Positions 15,474-64,000 of a stretch of DNA of 64,000 nucleotides are shown piece after piece. The stretch spans positions 19,641 through 83,640 of IMG/VR virus record IMGVR_UViG_3300028553_000013; one strand, given 5' to 3'. Positions within the stretch are counted from its first letter, which is position 1; every line of letters begins with the position of its first letter. The notes beneath the pieces were generated by a model, which worked only from the letters and a program-made list of their open reading frames with translations, made no database searches and had not been told where the DNA came from. Both the position numbers and the translations under genes were made by a program. The DNA comes from a virus.

Positions 15474-15481
15474 AATAAATA
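15474..15481 (+). promoter_or_regulatory. Late promoter box AATAAATA abutting a terminator hairpin
   Basis: The box ends at the first base before the GGGG of the terminator stem. A start site about 7 bases downstream would fall inside the 5-prime arm. It lies 34 bases before the ATG at 15516. Confidence 0.45.
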
Positions 15482-15510
15482 GGGGAAAGTTTAAAACTTC
15501 CCCTTTTTTA
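15482..15510 (+). terminator. Rho-independent terminator after the tail fiber gene
   Basis: The stem GGGGAA pairs with TTCCCC at its base, around an AT-rich inner part (AGTTTAAAAC), followed by six T at 15504-15509. Confidence 0.8.
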
Positions 15511-15515
15511 TTGCT

Positions 15516-15701
15516 ATGAATGAACAAGAACTAAAGTCATTAATTAATGTGTATCAAAGAAGATTGAATGAAGCAAATGCACAATCTATTGCGTTTGAAG
15601 TAAGAACATTAATTCAACAAGAACTGATCAATGACTTACAACGACAATTAGAAGAAGCACCAAAAAGGAGTACAAAAAAAGTTGATACTGCTGAATTTTA
15701 A
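15516..15701 (+). CDS. Small coiled-coil protein, unknown function
   Basis: A 61-residue charged helical protein (RRLNEANAQSIAFE, then LINDLQRQLEEA) with a Lys-rich end before DTAEF. It lies alone between two fiber genes, just after a terminator, so it needs its own late promoter; the box at 15474 is the candidate. Similar short coiled-coil genes are common in cyanophage structural regions, but I cannot assign a function. Confidence 0.55.
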   Translation: MNEQELKSLINVYQRRLNEANAQSIAFEVRTLIQQELINDLQRQLEEAPKRSTKKVDTAEF

Positions 15702-36031: not shown

Positions 36032-36505
36032 ATGATAATGACACAAAAAAAATCAGAACACTATGTAAATAACAAGGAATTTTTAATTGCAATTGTTGCT
36101 TACAAACAAGATATTAAAGATGCTGAATATCTAGGAAAACCAAAACCAAGAATTACCAATTATCTTGGAGAATGTTTCCTAAAGATTGCAACACACTTAT
36201 CATATAAACCAAACTTTGTGAACTATATTTTCAAAGACGATATGATTTGTGATGGTATTGAAAATTGTGTTCAGTACATCAATAACTTCAATCCAGAAAA
36301 GTCCAGCAATCCTTTTGCATACTTTACTCAGATTATTTACTTTGCTTTCCTCCGTCGTATCCAAAAAGAAAAAAAACAATTAGAGATCAAACAAAAAATT
36401 ATTGAACAATGTGGATTTGACGAAGTTTTTGTTGCAGATCAAAATGGTAAGTCATCTGAGTATAATTCTATCAAAGATGCAGTACAGTATCGCTTCAACC
36501 TATGA
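36032..36505 (+). CDS. gp55: Late transcription sigma factor gp55
   Basis: A 157-residue sigma70-related factor (T4 gp55 has 185) that directs host RNA polymerase to the TATAAATA late promoters found throughout this window. The region-2-like core DDMICDGIENCVQYINNFNPEKSSNPFAYFTQIIYFAFLRRIQKEKKQ is clear. The ATG at 36032 is used; ATG 36038 is equally possible. It is expressed from a host-type promoter with an operator-like palindrome. It overlaps gp47 by 4 bases. Confidence 0.93.
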   Translation: MIMTQKKSEHYVNNKEFLIAIVAYKQDIKDAEYLGKPKPRITNYLGECFLKIATHLSYKPNFVNYIFKDDMICDGIENCVQYINNFNPEKSSNPFAYFTQIIYFAFLRRIQKEKKQLEIKQKIIEQCGFDEVFVADQNGKSSEYNSIKDAVQYRFNL

Positions 36506-41167: not shown

Positions 41168-41838
41168 AATTTTCTGATAAGACAATCAAAATTCTTCAAA
41201 ACTTTACTTCAATCAATCAGTCTCTATCCTTCAAAGAAGGTAAAAAACTTCGGACTATTTCTCCGATGCAGAATGTATTTGCGGAAGCTGAGATTGAAGA
41301 ATATATTCCAAAAAACTTTGCGATCTATGATCTTCCTCAGTTTTTAAACACAATTTGTATTTACAAAGATCCTGATATTGATGTGTCTAGCGAAGAAAGT
41401 TATGCTTCCCTTAAAGAAGGTAAAGCAAATCGTTCTAAGTATTTTTTCTCAGATCCTAGTGTAATTATTGCACCACCAGATCGTGAGATGAAACTTCCTT
41501 CTGAAGATGTTTGTTTTATTCTTCAGGAAGAGCAACTTCAAAAGATTTTGAAATCTTCTTCAATTCTAGGACTTCCTGATCTTGCTGCTGTTGGTGAAGC
41601 AGGAGTTATTAAAGTTGTTGTCAGTGATCGTAAAAACGATACCTCTAATGAGTATTCAATTGTTGTTGGAGAAACTGACGCTGAGTTTTCATTTAATTTC
41701 AAGATTGAAAATATTAAATTAATTCCTGGCAGTTACGAAGTTGTAATCTCAAAGAGCAAACTTGCCAGGTTCTACAGCGAGCGTTATAATCTTACTTACT
41801 TTATCGCACTTGAACCCGATAGTGTTTATGGATCGTAA
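41164..41838 (+). CDS. gp45: Sliding clamp gp45
   Basis: A 224-residue clamp (T4 gp45 has 228) that forms a trimer around DNA, tethers gp43 and in T4 activates late transcription through gp55. Recognisable parts: MKFSDKTIKILQNFTSINQSLSFKEGKKLRTISP and the C-terminal YFIALEPDSVYGS. It overlaps DUF3310 by 4 bases and gp44 by 11. Confidence 0.95.
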   Translation: MKFSDKTIKILQNFTSINQSLSFKEGKKLRTISPMQNVFAEAEIEEYIPKNFAIYDLPQFLNTICIYKDPDIDVSSEESYASLKEGKANRSKYFFSDPSVIIAPPDREMKLPSEDVCFILQEEQLQKILKSSSILGLPDLAAVGEAGVIKVVVSDRKNDTSNEYSIVVGETDAEFSFNFKIENIKLIPGSYEVVISKSKLARFYSERYNLTYFIALEPDSVYGS

Positions 41839-56665: not shown

Positions 56666-56690
56666 CCACAACTTCGGTTGTGGTATTTTT
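56666..56690 (+). terminator. Rho-independent terminator with a UUCG tetraloop
   Basis: Stem CCACAAC/GTTGTGG closed by C(TTCG)G, then TATTTTT. It is followed immediately by a late promoter. Confidence 0.85.
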
Positions 56691-56697
56691 ATAAATA
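56690..56697 (+). promoter_or_regulatory. Late promoter box TATAAATA (exact)
   Basis: An exact consensus directly after the terminator, 31 bases before the ATG at 56729. Confidence 0.7.
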
Positions 56698-59613: not shown

Positions 59614-61861
59614 AGGTCTGAACCTCGATAAACTACATGTGATGGTAGAAGAAGCCTGCAAAGACATTGCAGGTGTTTCTGCATCGCAAGTAGAAATTAA
59701 TTCCGGTATTCAGTTCTACGATGGCATTACTACGGGAGAAGTTCAAGAAATCTTGATTCGTAGTGCTTCAGATTTGATTGATTTGGAAACTCCAAACTAT
59801 CAATTTGTAGCAGCAAGATTGCTTCTATTTGCGATTAGAAAGCAGTTTTGTGGAAGAATAAAGGAAATTATTTCTTTAAAAGATCATATCCACAAATGTG
59901 TTGCTTCTGGCGTATATGATAAAGAAATTCTTTCTAAATATACCAAAGCAGAAATAGATAAGATTGATACTTTTATCAATCATGATCGTGATTATTTGTT
60001 TACATATGCTGGACTACGACAGGTTGTTGATAAGTATCTTGTACAGGATAGAAATTCTGGTAAGATTTTTGAACTACCACAGTTCATGTATATGTTAATT
60101 TCAATGACGATCTTTGCAGAATATCCTTATGAAACAAGATTGTCATATGTCAAACGATACTACGACGCAATCAGCAAACACAGAATCAACATTCCTACCC
60201 CCATTATGGCAGGAGTTAGGACGCCACTTAGACAATTCGCTAGCTGTGTTCTTATTGATGTTGATGACACCCTCAATAGCATCTTTAGCAGTGATATGGC
60301 TATTGGGAGATATGTTTCTCAAAGAGCGGGTATCGGTATCAACGCAGGTCGCATCCGTGGCATCAACAGTAAGATCCGAGGCGGAGAAGTTCAGCATACT
60401 GGCGTTGTTCCGTTTCTCAAAAAGTTTGAGTCAACTGTGCGATGCTGTACGCAAAACGGCATACGAGGCGGAAGCGCGACAGTCCACTTCCCAATTTGGC
60501 ACCAAGAAATCCAAGACATCTTAGTATTAAAAAATAACAAGGGAACTGAAGACAATCGTGTCCGTAAACTAGATTATAGTATTCAACTTAGTAAACTTTT
60601 TTATGAAAGATTTATTCAAGATGGTGAGATCACGCTTTTCTCCCCACACAATGTTCCTGGTTTGTATGATGCTTTCGGAACAGACAAGTTTGACGAGTTA
60701 TATGTCCAATACGAGAACAATTCGTATATTCCGTCGAAAACTGTTAAGGCACAGGAACTCATTCTTAGTCTCCTGAAAGAACGTGCTGAGACAGGTCGTA
60801 TCTATATCATGAATATTGATCATTGCAATTCACATTCTTCTTTTAAGGATAAAATTGAGATGAGTAATTTGTGTCAAGAAATTACTCTTCCTACTAAACC
60901 ACTTCAACACATTGATGGTGAAGGTGAAATTGCACTTTGTATTCTTTCTGCAATTAATGTTGGTAAAATAAAATCCGATGAAGAGTTAGAAAATCTTTGT
61001 GACTTGTCTGTACGTGCTCTTGAAGAATTAATTGATTATCAACAGTATCCAATTATTGCTGCTGAAAAAGGAACCAAAGCACGTAGATCTCTTGGTATTG
61101 GATTTATTGGTCTAGCACATTATTTGGCTAAACTTGGATACAAGTATGACAGTCAAGAAGCATGGAATGCTATTCATGGACTTTCCGAAAGTTTCCAATA
61201 CTTTTTATTGAAATCTTCTAATCAATTATCAAAAGAAAAGGGTCCATGTTCGCTATTCACAAATACCAAATATGCTGATGGAATGTTACCAATTGATACA
61301 TATAAAAAAAATGTAGATGAAATTGCTTGTATTCCTTACAACCATGATTGGGAATCTCTTAGGGCATCTATTTTGGAACACGGTCTCCGGCACTCAACAT
61401 TGTCGGCACAAATGCCTTCGGAGAGCAGTTCCGTTGTGTCAAATGCAACAAATGGAATTGAACCACCTAGAGGATTCTTGTCCATTAAGAAATCCAAGAA
61501 AGGTCCACTTAAGCAAATTGTTCCACAGTATCAAACTCTTAAAAACAACTATACGCTTCTTTGGGATATGCCTAGCAATCGTGGTTATATCAATACTGTT
61601 GCTGTTATGCAAAAATTCTTTGATCAGGCAATCTCGGGTAACTGGTCATATAATCCAGAGCATTATGCCGATAATGAAGTACCTGTGTCGGTAATGGCAC
61701 AAGATTTTCTGACTACATACAAATATGGTTGGAAAACTAGTTACTATCAAAATACTTATGATAGTAAAGGTGATGAAATGGATAATAAATCTGATATCAA
61801 TTCACTAATATTTGAACTTTTAAATGAAAATGAAGAAGACTGCGAAACGTGTAAAATCTAA
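59570..61861 (+). CDS. nrdA: Class Ia ribonucleotide reductase large subunit NrdA
   Basis: 763 residues, close to E. coli NrdA. N-terminal ATP-cone GITVKKRDGSIEGLNLDKLH; active-site region SNLCQEI (N, C and E of the radical site), redox cysteines in FASCVLID and LCILSAINVG, radical-transfer tyrosines in TSYYQNTYD, and a C-terminal CETCKI pair that docks thioredoxin or glutaredoxin. With NrdB it makes dNTPs for phage DNA. A stretch around 60120-60500 is richer in GC than its surroundings. Confidence 0.96.
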   Translation: MSNGITVKKRDGSIEGLNLDKLHVMVEEACKDIAGVSASQVEINSGIQFYDGITTGEVQEILIRSASDLIDLETPNYQFVAARLLLFAIRKQFCGRIKEIISLKDHIHKCVASGVYDKEILSKYTKAEIDKIDTFINHDRDYLFTYAGLRQVVDKYLVQDRNSGKIFELPQFMYMLISMTIFAEYPYETRLSYVKRYYDAISKHRINIPTPIMAGVRTPLRQFASCVLIDVDDTLNSIFSSDMAIGRYVSQRAGIGINAGRIRGINSKIRGGEVQHTGVVPFLKKFESTVRCCTQNGIRGGSATVHFPIWHQEIQDILVLKNNKGTEDNRVRKLDYSIQLSKLFYERFIQDGEITLFSPHNVPGLYDAFGTDKFDELYVQYENNSYIPSKTVKAQELILSLLKERAETGRIYIMNIDHCNSHSSFKDKIEMSNLCQEITLPTKPLQHIDGEGEIALCILSAINVGKIKSDEELENLCDLSVRALEELIDYQQYPIIAAEKGTKARRSLGIGFIGLAHYLAKLGYKYDSQEAWNAIHGLSESFQYFLLKSSNQLSKEKGPCSLFTNTKYADGMLPIDTYKKNVDEIACIPYNHDWESLRASILEHGLRHSTLSAQMPSESSSVVSNATNGIEPPRGFLSIKKSKKGPLKQIVPQYQTLKNNYTLLWDMPSNRGYINTVAVMQKFFDQAISGNWSYNPEHYADNEVPVSVMAQDFLTTYKYGWKTSYYQNTYDSKGDEMDNKSDINSLIFELLNENEEDCETCKI

Positions 61862-61895
61862 TAACTTTAGAATTAACCCACCGCAAACGAAAAAA

Positions 61896-63041
61896 ATGGC
61901 CATCAACGGAATGACCGTTTTTAATGATGCTCAAGTTGACATAAAAAAGGAACCAATGTTCTTTGGACAACCATTAGGTATTCAAAGATATGATACTTAT
62001 AAGTATCCAGTATTTGAAAAACTAACTAATCAACAACTTAGTTATTTTTGGCGTCCAGAAGAAATATCCTTACAAAAAGATCGTAGTGACTACCAGACAC
62101 TACGACAAGAACAAAAACATATTTTTACTTCCAATTTAAAGTATCAAGTTCTTCTTGATAGTATTCAAGGTCGTGGACCTAGTATGGCATTTGCTCCATA
62201 CTGTTCACTACCAGAACTGGAAGGTGCTATGAAAGTATGGGAGTTTATGGAGATGATCCATAGTCGTTCTTATACTTACATCATAAAAAATATATATGCA
62301 AATCCTTCTGAAGTTTTTGACACAATTTTAAATGATCAAAAGATCTTAGATCGTGCTAGGTCTGTAACTGAAGCGTATGATGATTTCATCAATGCTGCTC
62401 ATGCATATGATAGTAGTAATCAATGGAAGTTTGTAAATGAAGGAGTTCCTTCTGCTACGGATGAATTGTATGAACTAAAGCGTAAACTTTATAGAGCAGT
62501 TGCTAACGTTAACATTCTTGAGGGTATTCGTTTTTATGTTTCTTTTGCATGTTCTTTTGCTTTTGGTGAACTGAAAGTAATGGAAGGATCTGCAAAGATA
62601 ATCTCACTTATTGCTCGTGACGAAAATCAACATCTTGTTCTTACTCAGAATATTTTGAACAAGTGGAAAGAAGGTGATGATCCTGATATGGAAAGGATTG
62701 TTGAAGAGGAAGAAGAAAATATTGTTGCAATGTTTAGGAAAGCAGTTGATCAAGAAAAAGAATGGGCAGAATATTTGTTCCAGGATGGATCAATGATTGG
62801 ATTGAATCAAAAACTTCTCAGTTCTTATGTTGAATGGATTGCCAATCGTCGTATGAAAGCGATTGGATTGAAATCAATTTATGATATTTCTTCTAAAAAT
62901 AATCCACTTCCTTGGACTGAACATTGGATCTCTTCTAAAGGTCTTCAAGTTGCTCCACAAGAAACGGAAGTTGAAAGTTATTTGGTTGGTGGCATCAAAC
63001 AAGATATGAAGAACAATACCTTTGCTGGATTTCAGTTGTAA
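61896..63041 (+). CDS. nrdB: Class Ia ribonucleotide reductase small subunit NrdB
   Basis: 381 residues from ATG 61896 (MAINGMTVFNDAQVDIKKEPMFFGQPLG); an in-frame ATG at 61824 would add a basic tail and overlap nrdA. The diiron ligands are present: D in LLDSIQGRGP, E, H and radical Y in EFMEMIHSRSYTYII, E in ILEGIRFY, E and H in ARDENQHL. The C-terminal TFAGFQL is the peptide that docks to NrdA. It ends with a 1-base overlap to the next small gene. Confidence 0.95.
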   Translation: MAINGMTVFNDAQVDIKKEPMFFGQPLGIQRYDTYKYPVFEKLTNQQLSYFWRPEEISLQKDRSDYQTLRQEQKHIFTSNLKYQVLLDSIQGRGPSMAFAPYCSLPELEGAMKVWEFMEMIHSRSYTYIIKNIYANPSEVFDTILNDQKILDRARSVTEAYDDFINAAHAYDSSNQWKFVNEGVPSATDELYELKRKLYRAVANVNILEGIRFYVSFACSFAFGELKVMEGSAKIISLIARDENQHLVLTQNILNKWKEGDDPDMERIVEEEEENIVAMFRKAVDQEKEWAEYLFQDGSMIGLNQKLLSSYVEWIANRRMKAIGLKSIYDISSKNNPLPWTEHWISSKGLQVAPQETEVESYLVGGIKQDMKNNTFAGFQL

Positions 63042-63190
63042 TGGAAGAGTGGAAAGAGAAGGCACTGAAATACAAAAAACTCTTGGAGTACAACAAACGA
63101 ATTCTTCGGGAGGGACCAAGAGATCTGTCGGAAGCGTGGTTTCTGGGAGCAATGAAACAAAAATACTACCAACCCCCCTGGTTTAACTGA
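63041..63190 (+). CDS. Small protein after nrdB, 49 residues, unknown
   Basis: It starts at the TAATG overlap with nrdB and ends at TGA 63188-63190. Basic helical N-terminus (EEWKEKALKYKKLLEYNKRI), then AWFLGAMKQKYYQPPWFN. No family recognised. Overlap with nrdB and the position before a terminator hairpin support it as the last gene of the nrd transcript. Confidence 0.6.
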   Translation: MEEWKEKALKYKKLLEYNKRILREGPRDLSEAWFLGAMKQKYYQPPWFN

Positions 63191-63193
63191 ATA

Positions 63194-63201
63194 GATAAAT
63201 A
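63194..63201 (+). promoter_or_regulatory. Late promoter box GATAAATA overlapping a hairpin
   Basis: The last bases of the box are the first bases of the 24-base palindrome that follows. It lies 23 bases before the ATG at 63225. Confidence 0.5.
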
Positions 63202-63224
63202 CCTCCATATGGAGGTATTTTATT
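63197..63224 (+). terminator. Perfect palindromic terminator-like hairpin
   Basis: A perfect 24-base palindrome (arms AAATACCTCCAT/ATGGAGGTATTT, 63197-63220) followed by a short, interrupted T-rich tract. As a terminator it is moderate; its 3-prime arm also carries GGAGG close to the next start, so folding would hide the ribosome site. Confidence 0.6.
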
Positions 63225-63563
63225 ATGAACCCAAGTTCGGCTAAAGCTAAAGGCAGAAGATTGCAACAATGGGTTCGTGATCAATTGATTGAGCACCTTG
63301 AAGTACATCCTGAAGATATTGAAAGTCGTAGTATGGGTGCTGGTGGAGAAGATCTTATCATGGCTCGTGCTGCCAGATCTAAGTTTCCTCATAGTATAGA
63401 ATGTAAAAATGTCGAGAAGCTAAATATCTGGGATGCTTACTCTCAAGCATGTGCAAATTGTGGCGAGTATGAGCCCGTTTTGTTTATAAAAAAGAATAAC
63501 AAAAACCCATTAGTGGTTGTGGATGCAGAGTATTACATAAACTTATTTGGAGATAAAAAATGA
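63225..63563 (+). CDS. PD-(D/E)XK nuclease, Holliday junction resolvase-like
   Basis: 112 residues. KGRRLQQWVRDQLIEHL, then the catalytic region SRSMGAGGEDLIMARAARSKFPHSIECKNVEKLNIW, with D58 (GED) and E75-C-K77 as the D...ExK set, then VLFIKKNNKNPLVVV. Small nucleases of this type are common in marine phages, probably cleaving branched DNA. Ribosome site GGAGG at 63211-63215 lies within the hairpin arm. It overlaps the next gene by 4 bases. Confidence 0.8.
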   Translation: MNPSSAKAKGRRLQQWVRDQLIEHLEVHPEDIESRSMGAGGEDLIMARAARSKFPHSIECKNVEKLNIWDAYSQACANCGEYEPVLFIKKNNKNPLVVVDAEYYINLFGDKK

Positions 63564-64000
63564 AAATTGATTTACATAACTTCTTTAAGCATTACGATGA
63601 AAAAAATCCTAAGCATGTTGCTGGTGTAGAGCAACTGGAAAAGGATCTAACAGATTCTCTATTGATTGATGACACCTCAAATTGGGTTAGGATTTATAGA
63701 ACTAAACCAAGCAAACCAGTAAATCCATCTATTCTTGATGTGCCTTACTATCCACAGACAGATAACTATACAAATGCAGAACGCACTTGTAATTCCTCTG
63801 CCTGTGCGATGTGTCTTGAGTATTTCAAACCCGGAACTCTTAAAGGAGCACAAGGAGATGATGCCTATATTAGAAAAGTATTTGCCATCGGCGATACAAC
63901 TGATCATTCTGTGCAGACACAAGTTCTCGCAAATTATGGAATTCAGTCAAATTTTAGTTATAATCTTTCTTTTGTTGATCTTGATAAAAGTCTTAGTGCT
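63560..64000 (+). CDS. C39-like peptidase (partial, runs off the window)
   Basis: The first 147 codons are present. After about 50 residues comes LDVPYYPQTDNYTNAERTCNSSACAMCLEYFKPGTLKGAQGDD, the front of a papain-like C39 peptidase domain with Cys in NSSACAM as the probable nucleophile; DTTDHSVQTQVLANYGI continues the fold. The His and Asp would lie beyond the window. Phage proteins of this kind are often endolysin-like or virion-associated peptidases. The ATGA overlap with the nuclease indicates co-expression. Confidence 0.75.
   Translation, partial: MKIDLHNFFKHYDEKNPKHVAGVEQLEKDLTDSLLIDDTSNWVRIYRTKPSKPVNPSILDVPYYPQTDNYTNAERTCNSSACAMCLEYFKPGTLKGAQGDDAYIRKVFAIGDTTDHSVQTQVLANYGIQSNFSYNLSFVDLDKSLSA

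Follow-up and report, generated by a model that had tools for sequence, protein, structure and literature searches.

A probable promoter-in-hairpin switch of the T4 gene e/soc/49 type before the nuclease gene of an S-PM2-like cyanomyovirus

The DNA analysed here, a stretch of 64,000 nucleotides referred to as the window, forms the last part of a virus record of 83,640 bases from an S-PM2-like cyanomyovirus. Close to its right end, the gene for the small subunit of ribonucleotide reductase (nrdB) is followed, on the same strand and 183 nt downstream, by a nuclease gene. The stretch between the two genes is GAATAGATAAATACCTCCATATGGAGGTATTTTATTATG. The features of the locus, and the gp55 and gp45 genes encoded elsewhere in the same record, are:

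61824-63041, plus strand: nrdB, ribonucleotide reductase small subunit (phrog_86, E=3.5e-166; Pfam PF00268)
63041-63190, plus strand: small open reading frame of 49 aa, from translation, overlapping the nrdB stop (TAATG)
63194-63201, plus strand: late promoter box GATAAATA (NATAAATA type), from its spacing to the ATG and its conservation
63197-63220, plus strand: perfect palindrome/RNA hairpin AAATACCTCCATATGGAGGTATTT (5′ arm 63197-63206, loop AUAU 63207-63210, 3′ arm 63211-63220), from resampling, folding and covariation
63207, plus strand: predicted late transcript start (+1), an A and the first loop base, from the T4 rule
63211-63215, plus strand: Shine-Dalgarno (SD) sequence GGAGG inside the 3′ arm, from sequence
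63216-63224, plus strand: T-rich sequence TATTTTATT that follows the G/C part of the stem, from sequence; a possible weak terminator tail
63225-63563, plus strand: nuclease gene, annotated as RusA-like Holliday junction resolvase (phrog_244, E=1.3e-21)
63560-64000, plus strand: endolysin-like C39 peptidase gene, running off the window (phrog_10051, lysis, E=1.7e-52)
36044-36499: homologue of gp55, the late sigma factor
41170-41817: homologue of gp45, the sliding clamp

The upstream gene, nrdB, belongs to a presumed early/middle nrd unit, the timing of which we infer from T4-like biology. A search for a sigma-70-like promoter between nrdB and the nuclease gene gave none on the plus strand. The TGA of the 49-aa frame sits 3 nt upstream of the late box, and a ribosome terminating there (63190) could cover the 5′ arm of the hairpin and thereby open it. 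Relatives, too, carry similar small frames between nrdB and the RusA-annotated gene.

The name RusA is itself uncertain. The conserved motifs of the nuclease (GGEDLIM..IECKN) resemble those of PD-(D/E)XK enzymes, the match to Pfam PDDEXK_15 (0.0013) is below the cutoff, and the best PDB matches of a structural model are PD-(D/E)XK nucleases including the archaeal Hjc, all of them weak (E≥0.02). A sequence search for solved relatives returned none. Together, motifs, profile and modelled fold suggest that the name may be wrong and that the protein may belong to another family of resolvase-like nucleases.

The first-pass annotation of this DNA had described a late box that runs into a perfect 24-base palindrome, and this is indeed what lies there. 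The box GATAAATA enters a palindrome that is the longest perfect one in the window and the only one of at least 24 nt in 64 kb; 40 Markov resamples contained on average 0.0 perfect palindromes of at least 24 nt and 0.125 of at least 20 nt. The pattern ACCTCC-N4-GGAGGT, searched with 0 mismatches, occurs once in the window.

The box is of the NATAAATA type, accepted as the late motif in S-PM2 (PMC2984593), and its distance of 23 nt to the ATG at 63225 is typical of the other late boxes in the window. Its mere count is at chance (5 seen, 5.9 expected) and was dropped as evidence for a promoter. Placement, unlike the count, is above chance: ATAAATA stands 10-40 nt before an ORF start at 54% of its sites in the window and at 39% in S-PM2, compared with mostly 0-9% (window) or 0-13% (window and S-PM2) for permutations of the same letters, apart from AATAAAT and TAAATAA (19-26%), both of which can overlap the box. 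The strand bias of promoters in the window tracks gene orientation and was left unused as evidence. A T4-type late box thus stands directly upstream of the nuclease gene in a phage that encodes gp55, and the box can be taken as real, as had been proposed.

The late box of T4 occupies −13 to −6 (PMC1524935). This geometry, borrowed from T4, predicts +1 at 63207, in agreement with the earlier expectation of a start near the centre of the hairpin. The predicted late RNA begins AUAUGGAGG and would lack the 5′ arm.

The GGAGG ends 9 nt upstream of the ATG. The hairpin folds with −16.9 kcal/mol, compared with a mean of −9.3 for shuffled sequences (z = −3.0), and the predicted probability that the SD is unpaired is 0.00 in the long RNA that reads through from nrdB versus 0.65 in the late RNA. 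Folded separately, the short form leaves the SD without structure. That the ribosome site would be hidden in the long RNA and freed in the late one, as first suggested, is therefore supported by folding and, in relatives, by covariation of the arms. A search of Rfam with the element gave no match.

Relatives were retrieved by the nuclease protein alone, and hence the sample is unbiased toward the motif. The box ([AC]TAAATA) was found in 52 of 66 distinct leaders. A large subset of these has CTAAATA, a sequence that has been proposed as the late box of phage Aeh1 (PMC1524935). The other 14 leaders of the same nuclease have no box at that place, which means that the switch is not obligatory; leaders lacking the element come from lineages that include Syn1 and S-CAM3, in which the nuclease gene directly follows other ORFs. 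The predicted +1 lies at most 3 nt from the start of the loop in 42 of the 43 distinct elements analysed, and it is a purine in 51 of 52 distinct leaders (45 A). From the full hairpin to the predicted late RNA, the mean number of stem pairs drops from 11 to 1.1, and over 48 leaders the mean unpaired probability of the SD is 0.07 in the long versus 0.48 in the late RNA; these SD averages omit T4 e and six leaders, mostly of the GGGG types, on which the SD finder failed (flag ‘SD before TSS’).

The arms vary jointly, as CCTCC/GGAGG, CCCCC/GGGGG, CCTTC/GAAGG, CCCC/GGGG and U-G forms. In the alignment, 95.5% of the cells are paired and double changes occur in 4 of 6 pairs; the covariation score was matched by 0 of 500 shuffles. 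Native elements fold with a mean of −11.5 kcal/mol. Chimeras that carry a foreign 5′ arm are 4.4 kcal/mol less stable (−7.1), and shuffles reach −2.8 kcal/mol. In one AT-rich class, the SD is poor and the hairpins are weak, at −0.4 to −5.7 kcal/mol.

A leader of this kind is known from T4, a precedent for the design that the first-pass annotation did not name. In e, soc, 49 and I-TevI, the ribosome site is hidden in the early RNAs but free in the late ones, which lack the 5′ part (PMC3014915, PMC2988022). The leader of T4 gene 49 (AATAAATACCCTTA...TAAGGGTTTATTATG; in full AATAAATACCCTTATCTATTTAAGGTAAGGGTTTATTATG), which precedes the gene for endonuclease VII, is the closest parallel: a box AATAAATA runs into a hairpin, the ribosome site lies in the 3′ arm just before TTTATTATG, the product is a Holliday-junction resolvase and the gene adjoins a ribonucleotide reductase gene (nrdD). 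Since gene 49 has the same leader, the mechanism would be the known switch of T4 e, soc, 49 and I-TevI. There are differences, however. The cyanophage nuclease belongs to another family (phrog_244, PD-(D/E)XK-like), its ribonucleotide reductase gene (nrdB) lies upstream, many cyanophage copies have a stronger U-tract, and the predicted +1 of T4 is 4 nt before the loop. With e, soc and I-TevI the cyanophage leader would share an early RNA that masks the ribosome site and a late start within the 5′ part of the structure that unmasks it (PMC3014915, PMC2988022). The leader of T4 e (TATAAATACCTTCTATAAATACTTAGGAGGTATTATG), in contrast, carries a tandem pair of late boxes and lacks a U-tract, and it controls the lysozyme directly, whereas in the cyanophage unit the endolysin comes second.

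On this evidence, a promoter-in-hairpin switch of the T4 gene e/soc/49 type probably precedes the nuclease gene. Early/middle RNAs that read on from the nrdA-nrdB unit would carry both arms of the hairpin, which would mask the nuclease gene’s GGAGG; in copies with a good U-tract, the hairpin would also end part of these RNAs. After the onset of replication, a gp55/gp45-dependent polymerase would initiate at the GATAAATA box. With +1 on the first loop base, the late RNA would be without the 5′ arm and unable to form the hairpin, and its ribosome site, 9 nt before the ATG, would be free, so that the nuclease and the overlapping endolysin gene would be expressed only late. The analysis shows the anatomy of the sequence, the covariation, the geometry of +1, the gp55 and gp45 genes and the parallel in T4 gene 49; the actual start site, the repression of translation, the termination and the timing are deduced from sequence. 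It is tempting to go further and to assume a two-layer device, in which the hairpin would be both an attenuator of early RNA and a lock on the ribosome site, the late promoter inside it would bypass both, and marine T4-like phages would use it widely to delay a resolvase-endolysin unit that sits within the early nrd region, having arrived at it in parallel with T4 gene 49 on a resolvase of a different family. To this wider version we give somewhat less than an even chance.

The strongest competitor holds that the element serves chiefly to end the nrd unit as an intrinsic terminator, with a late promoter overlapping the 5′ arm so that late RNA escapes, and with the hiding of the ribosome site as a side effect. 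Like intrinsic (Rho-independent) terminators, the element has a G/C-rich stem and, in most relatives, a T-rich tail: in 29 of the 43 distinct elements, 7 of the 8 bases that follow the last G/C are T, CCCCGAAAGGGG plus T7 occurs in some relatives, and the S-PM2 copy was called as a terminator. The copy in the window, on the other hand, has a poor tail (TATTTTATTATG) with an interrupted T-run and was not called by the same kind of simple scan; one class without a T-run retains box, hairpin and position; and the SD is kept in the 3′ arm though the letters of the stem vary. An ordinary terminator also does not overlap a late promoter and the gene’s own ribosome site. We conclude that early RNAs are likely to be terminated in relatives with GGAGGTTTTTT and that termination by the window copy is doubtful. 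Of the two-level switch proposed at first, the translational half agrees with the switch established by experiment for T4 e, soc, 49 and I-TevI, and the terminator half is plausible, though less so for this copy than for relatives. Cyanobacteria are not known to have Rho, and an intrinsic terminator would for this reason be more useful there.

The terminator reading also draws on two sites at which a late box abuts a hairpin without an SD in the 3′ arm. At 15474-15525 of the window, a second late box abuts a terminator-like hairpin (AATAAATAGGGGAAAGTTTAAAACTTCCCCTTTTTTATTGCTATG); with the SD outside the 3′ arm, only termination would be bypassed. At S-PM2 117800 (L215:17800-17834), AATAAATATAGGGGAGTGATGCTCCCCTTTCTATG combines box and hairpin, again with the SD outside the 3′ arm, before S-PM2p161 (phrog_3316), a design that resembles the nuclease leader but precedes an unrelated gene. 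Weighing both sides, we see the terminator reading as possible, yet leaning towards unlikely.

Box and hairpin could also both be real and have nothing to do with each other, the one a plain late promoter and the other a stabiliser of the 3′ end of the nrdB mRNA, with no regulatory coupling. Terminators that adjoin late boxes without overlap do exist: at 56667-56697 of the window, a terminator-like hairpin (CCACAACTTCGGTTGTGGTATTTTT) is directly followed by a late box (TATAAATA) before a 282-aa ORF, a non-overlapping version of the same logic. Independence makes it hard to see, however, why the register of +1 to the loop is held in 42 of 43 elements, and why the element precedes the nuclease gene even where the fetched flank holds no nrdB (L153, L196). 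Moreover, a pattern scan of viral contigs found the true box with the hairpin in at least 119 stretches versus 21 and 53 for two permuted boxes with the same hairpin, about 10 of the 53 being the reverse strand of true elements. An accidental neighbourhood of the two is improbable.

That the palindrome is instead a DNA operator for a dimeric protein such as the nuclease itself would suit a perfect dyad over a promoter and has a precedent in I-TevI, which represses its own late promoter (PMC2988022), but the spacer between the arms varies in length, the arms change jointly and U-G pairs (CCUCC/GGGGG), which point to RNA rather than a DNA dyad, break the symmetry, and this makes an operator very improbable.

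The promoter-in-hairpin switch seems to be a special device and not a general late leader. Its use throughout the genome of one phage was considered and rejected, since, by the stem criteria, a correctly placed hairpin and start accompany ATAAATA at only 2 of its 59 sites in S-PM2 and at 1 of its 28 sites in the window. Other matches of the scan with the cyanophage element were the e-type lysozyme gene of a coliphage (L021) and several phage genes whose function is structural or unknown. In marine phage contigs (L014, L035, L037, L055, L074 and others), a similar cassette (e.g. AGGAGATCTCTAATAAATACCCCCGTAAGGGGGTTTTTTAATG) stands before several different long genes without a known function, as if it were reused within genomes.

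That two resolvases from different families share this leader suggests a switch selected for what the gene does and not inherited with it. The switch as such is already known from T4; judged from sequence, cyanophages would be a group for which it has not been described in the literature searched. We found no cyanophage description of this leader in the open-access literature, and subscription papers may differ. The transcriptome of Syn9 has reportedly been mapped. The finding would carry a textbook timing device of T4 over to cyanophages, a group abundant in the ocean, and it offers a testable account of how a junction-cutting nuclease and an endolysin could stay silent amid expressed early genes.

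The gene that follows the nuclease gene, which the first-pass annotation did not name as an endolysin, has a start codon that overlaps the nuclease stop (ATGA), and its full-length homologue in S-PM2 matches Pfam C39_2 (1.9e-13). The element lies directly before the nuclease gene in 41 of 42 lysin-bearing loci, and further upstream in the 42nd (L165); it is present at 24 of 38 loci without lysin. The link was assessed with a Fisher test without phylogenetic correction and, the loci being related, is an association and not an independent test.

At the end of the C39 peptidase gene, beyond the end of the window, lies a candidate −1 programmed ribosomal frameshift. An in-frame A_AAA_AAG is found at, or one codon before, the C39 stop in 9 of 9 distinct loci (L100:3312-3385, which is 99.8% identical to the window end; L001 (S-PM2):3014-3085; L180, L148, L151, L186, L198, L170 and L208). 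Past the stop, the −1 frame is open into a lysozyme domain of the GH24 (T4 e) family, and in seven aligned loci a covarying stem follows about 5 nt downstream of A_AAA_AAG. Slippery site and stem have the standard layout of a −1 frameshift, from which a C39-lysozyme fusion would result; this would explain why the ‘putative lysin’ S-PM2p157 is annotated as half a lysozyme.
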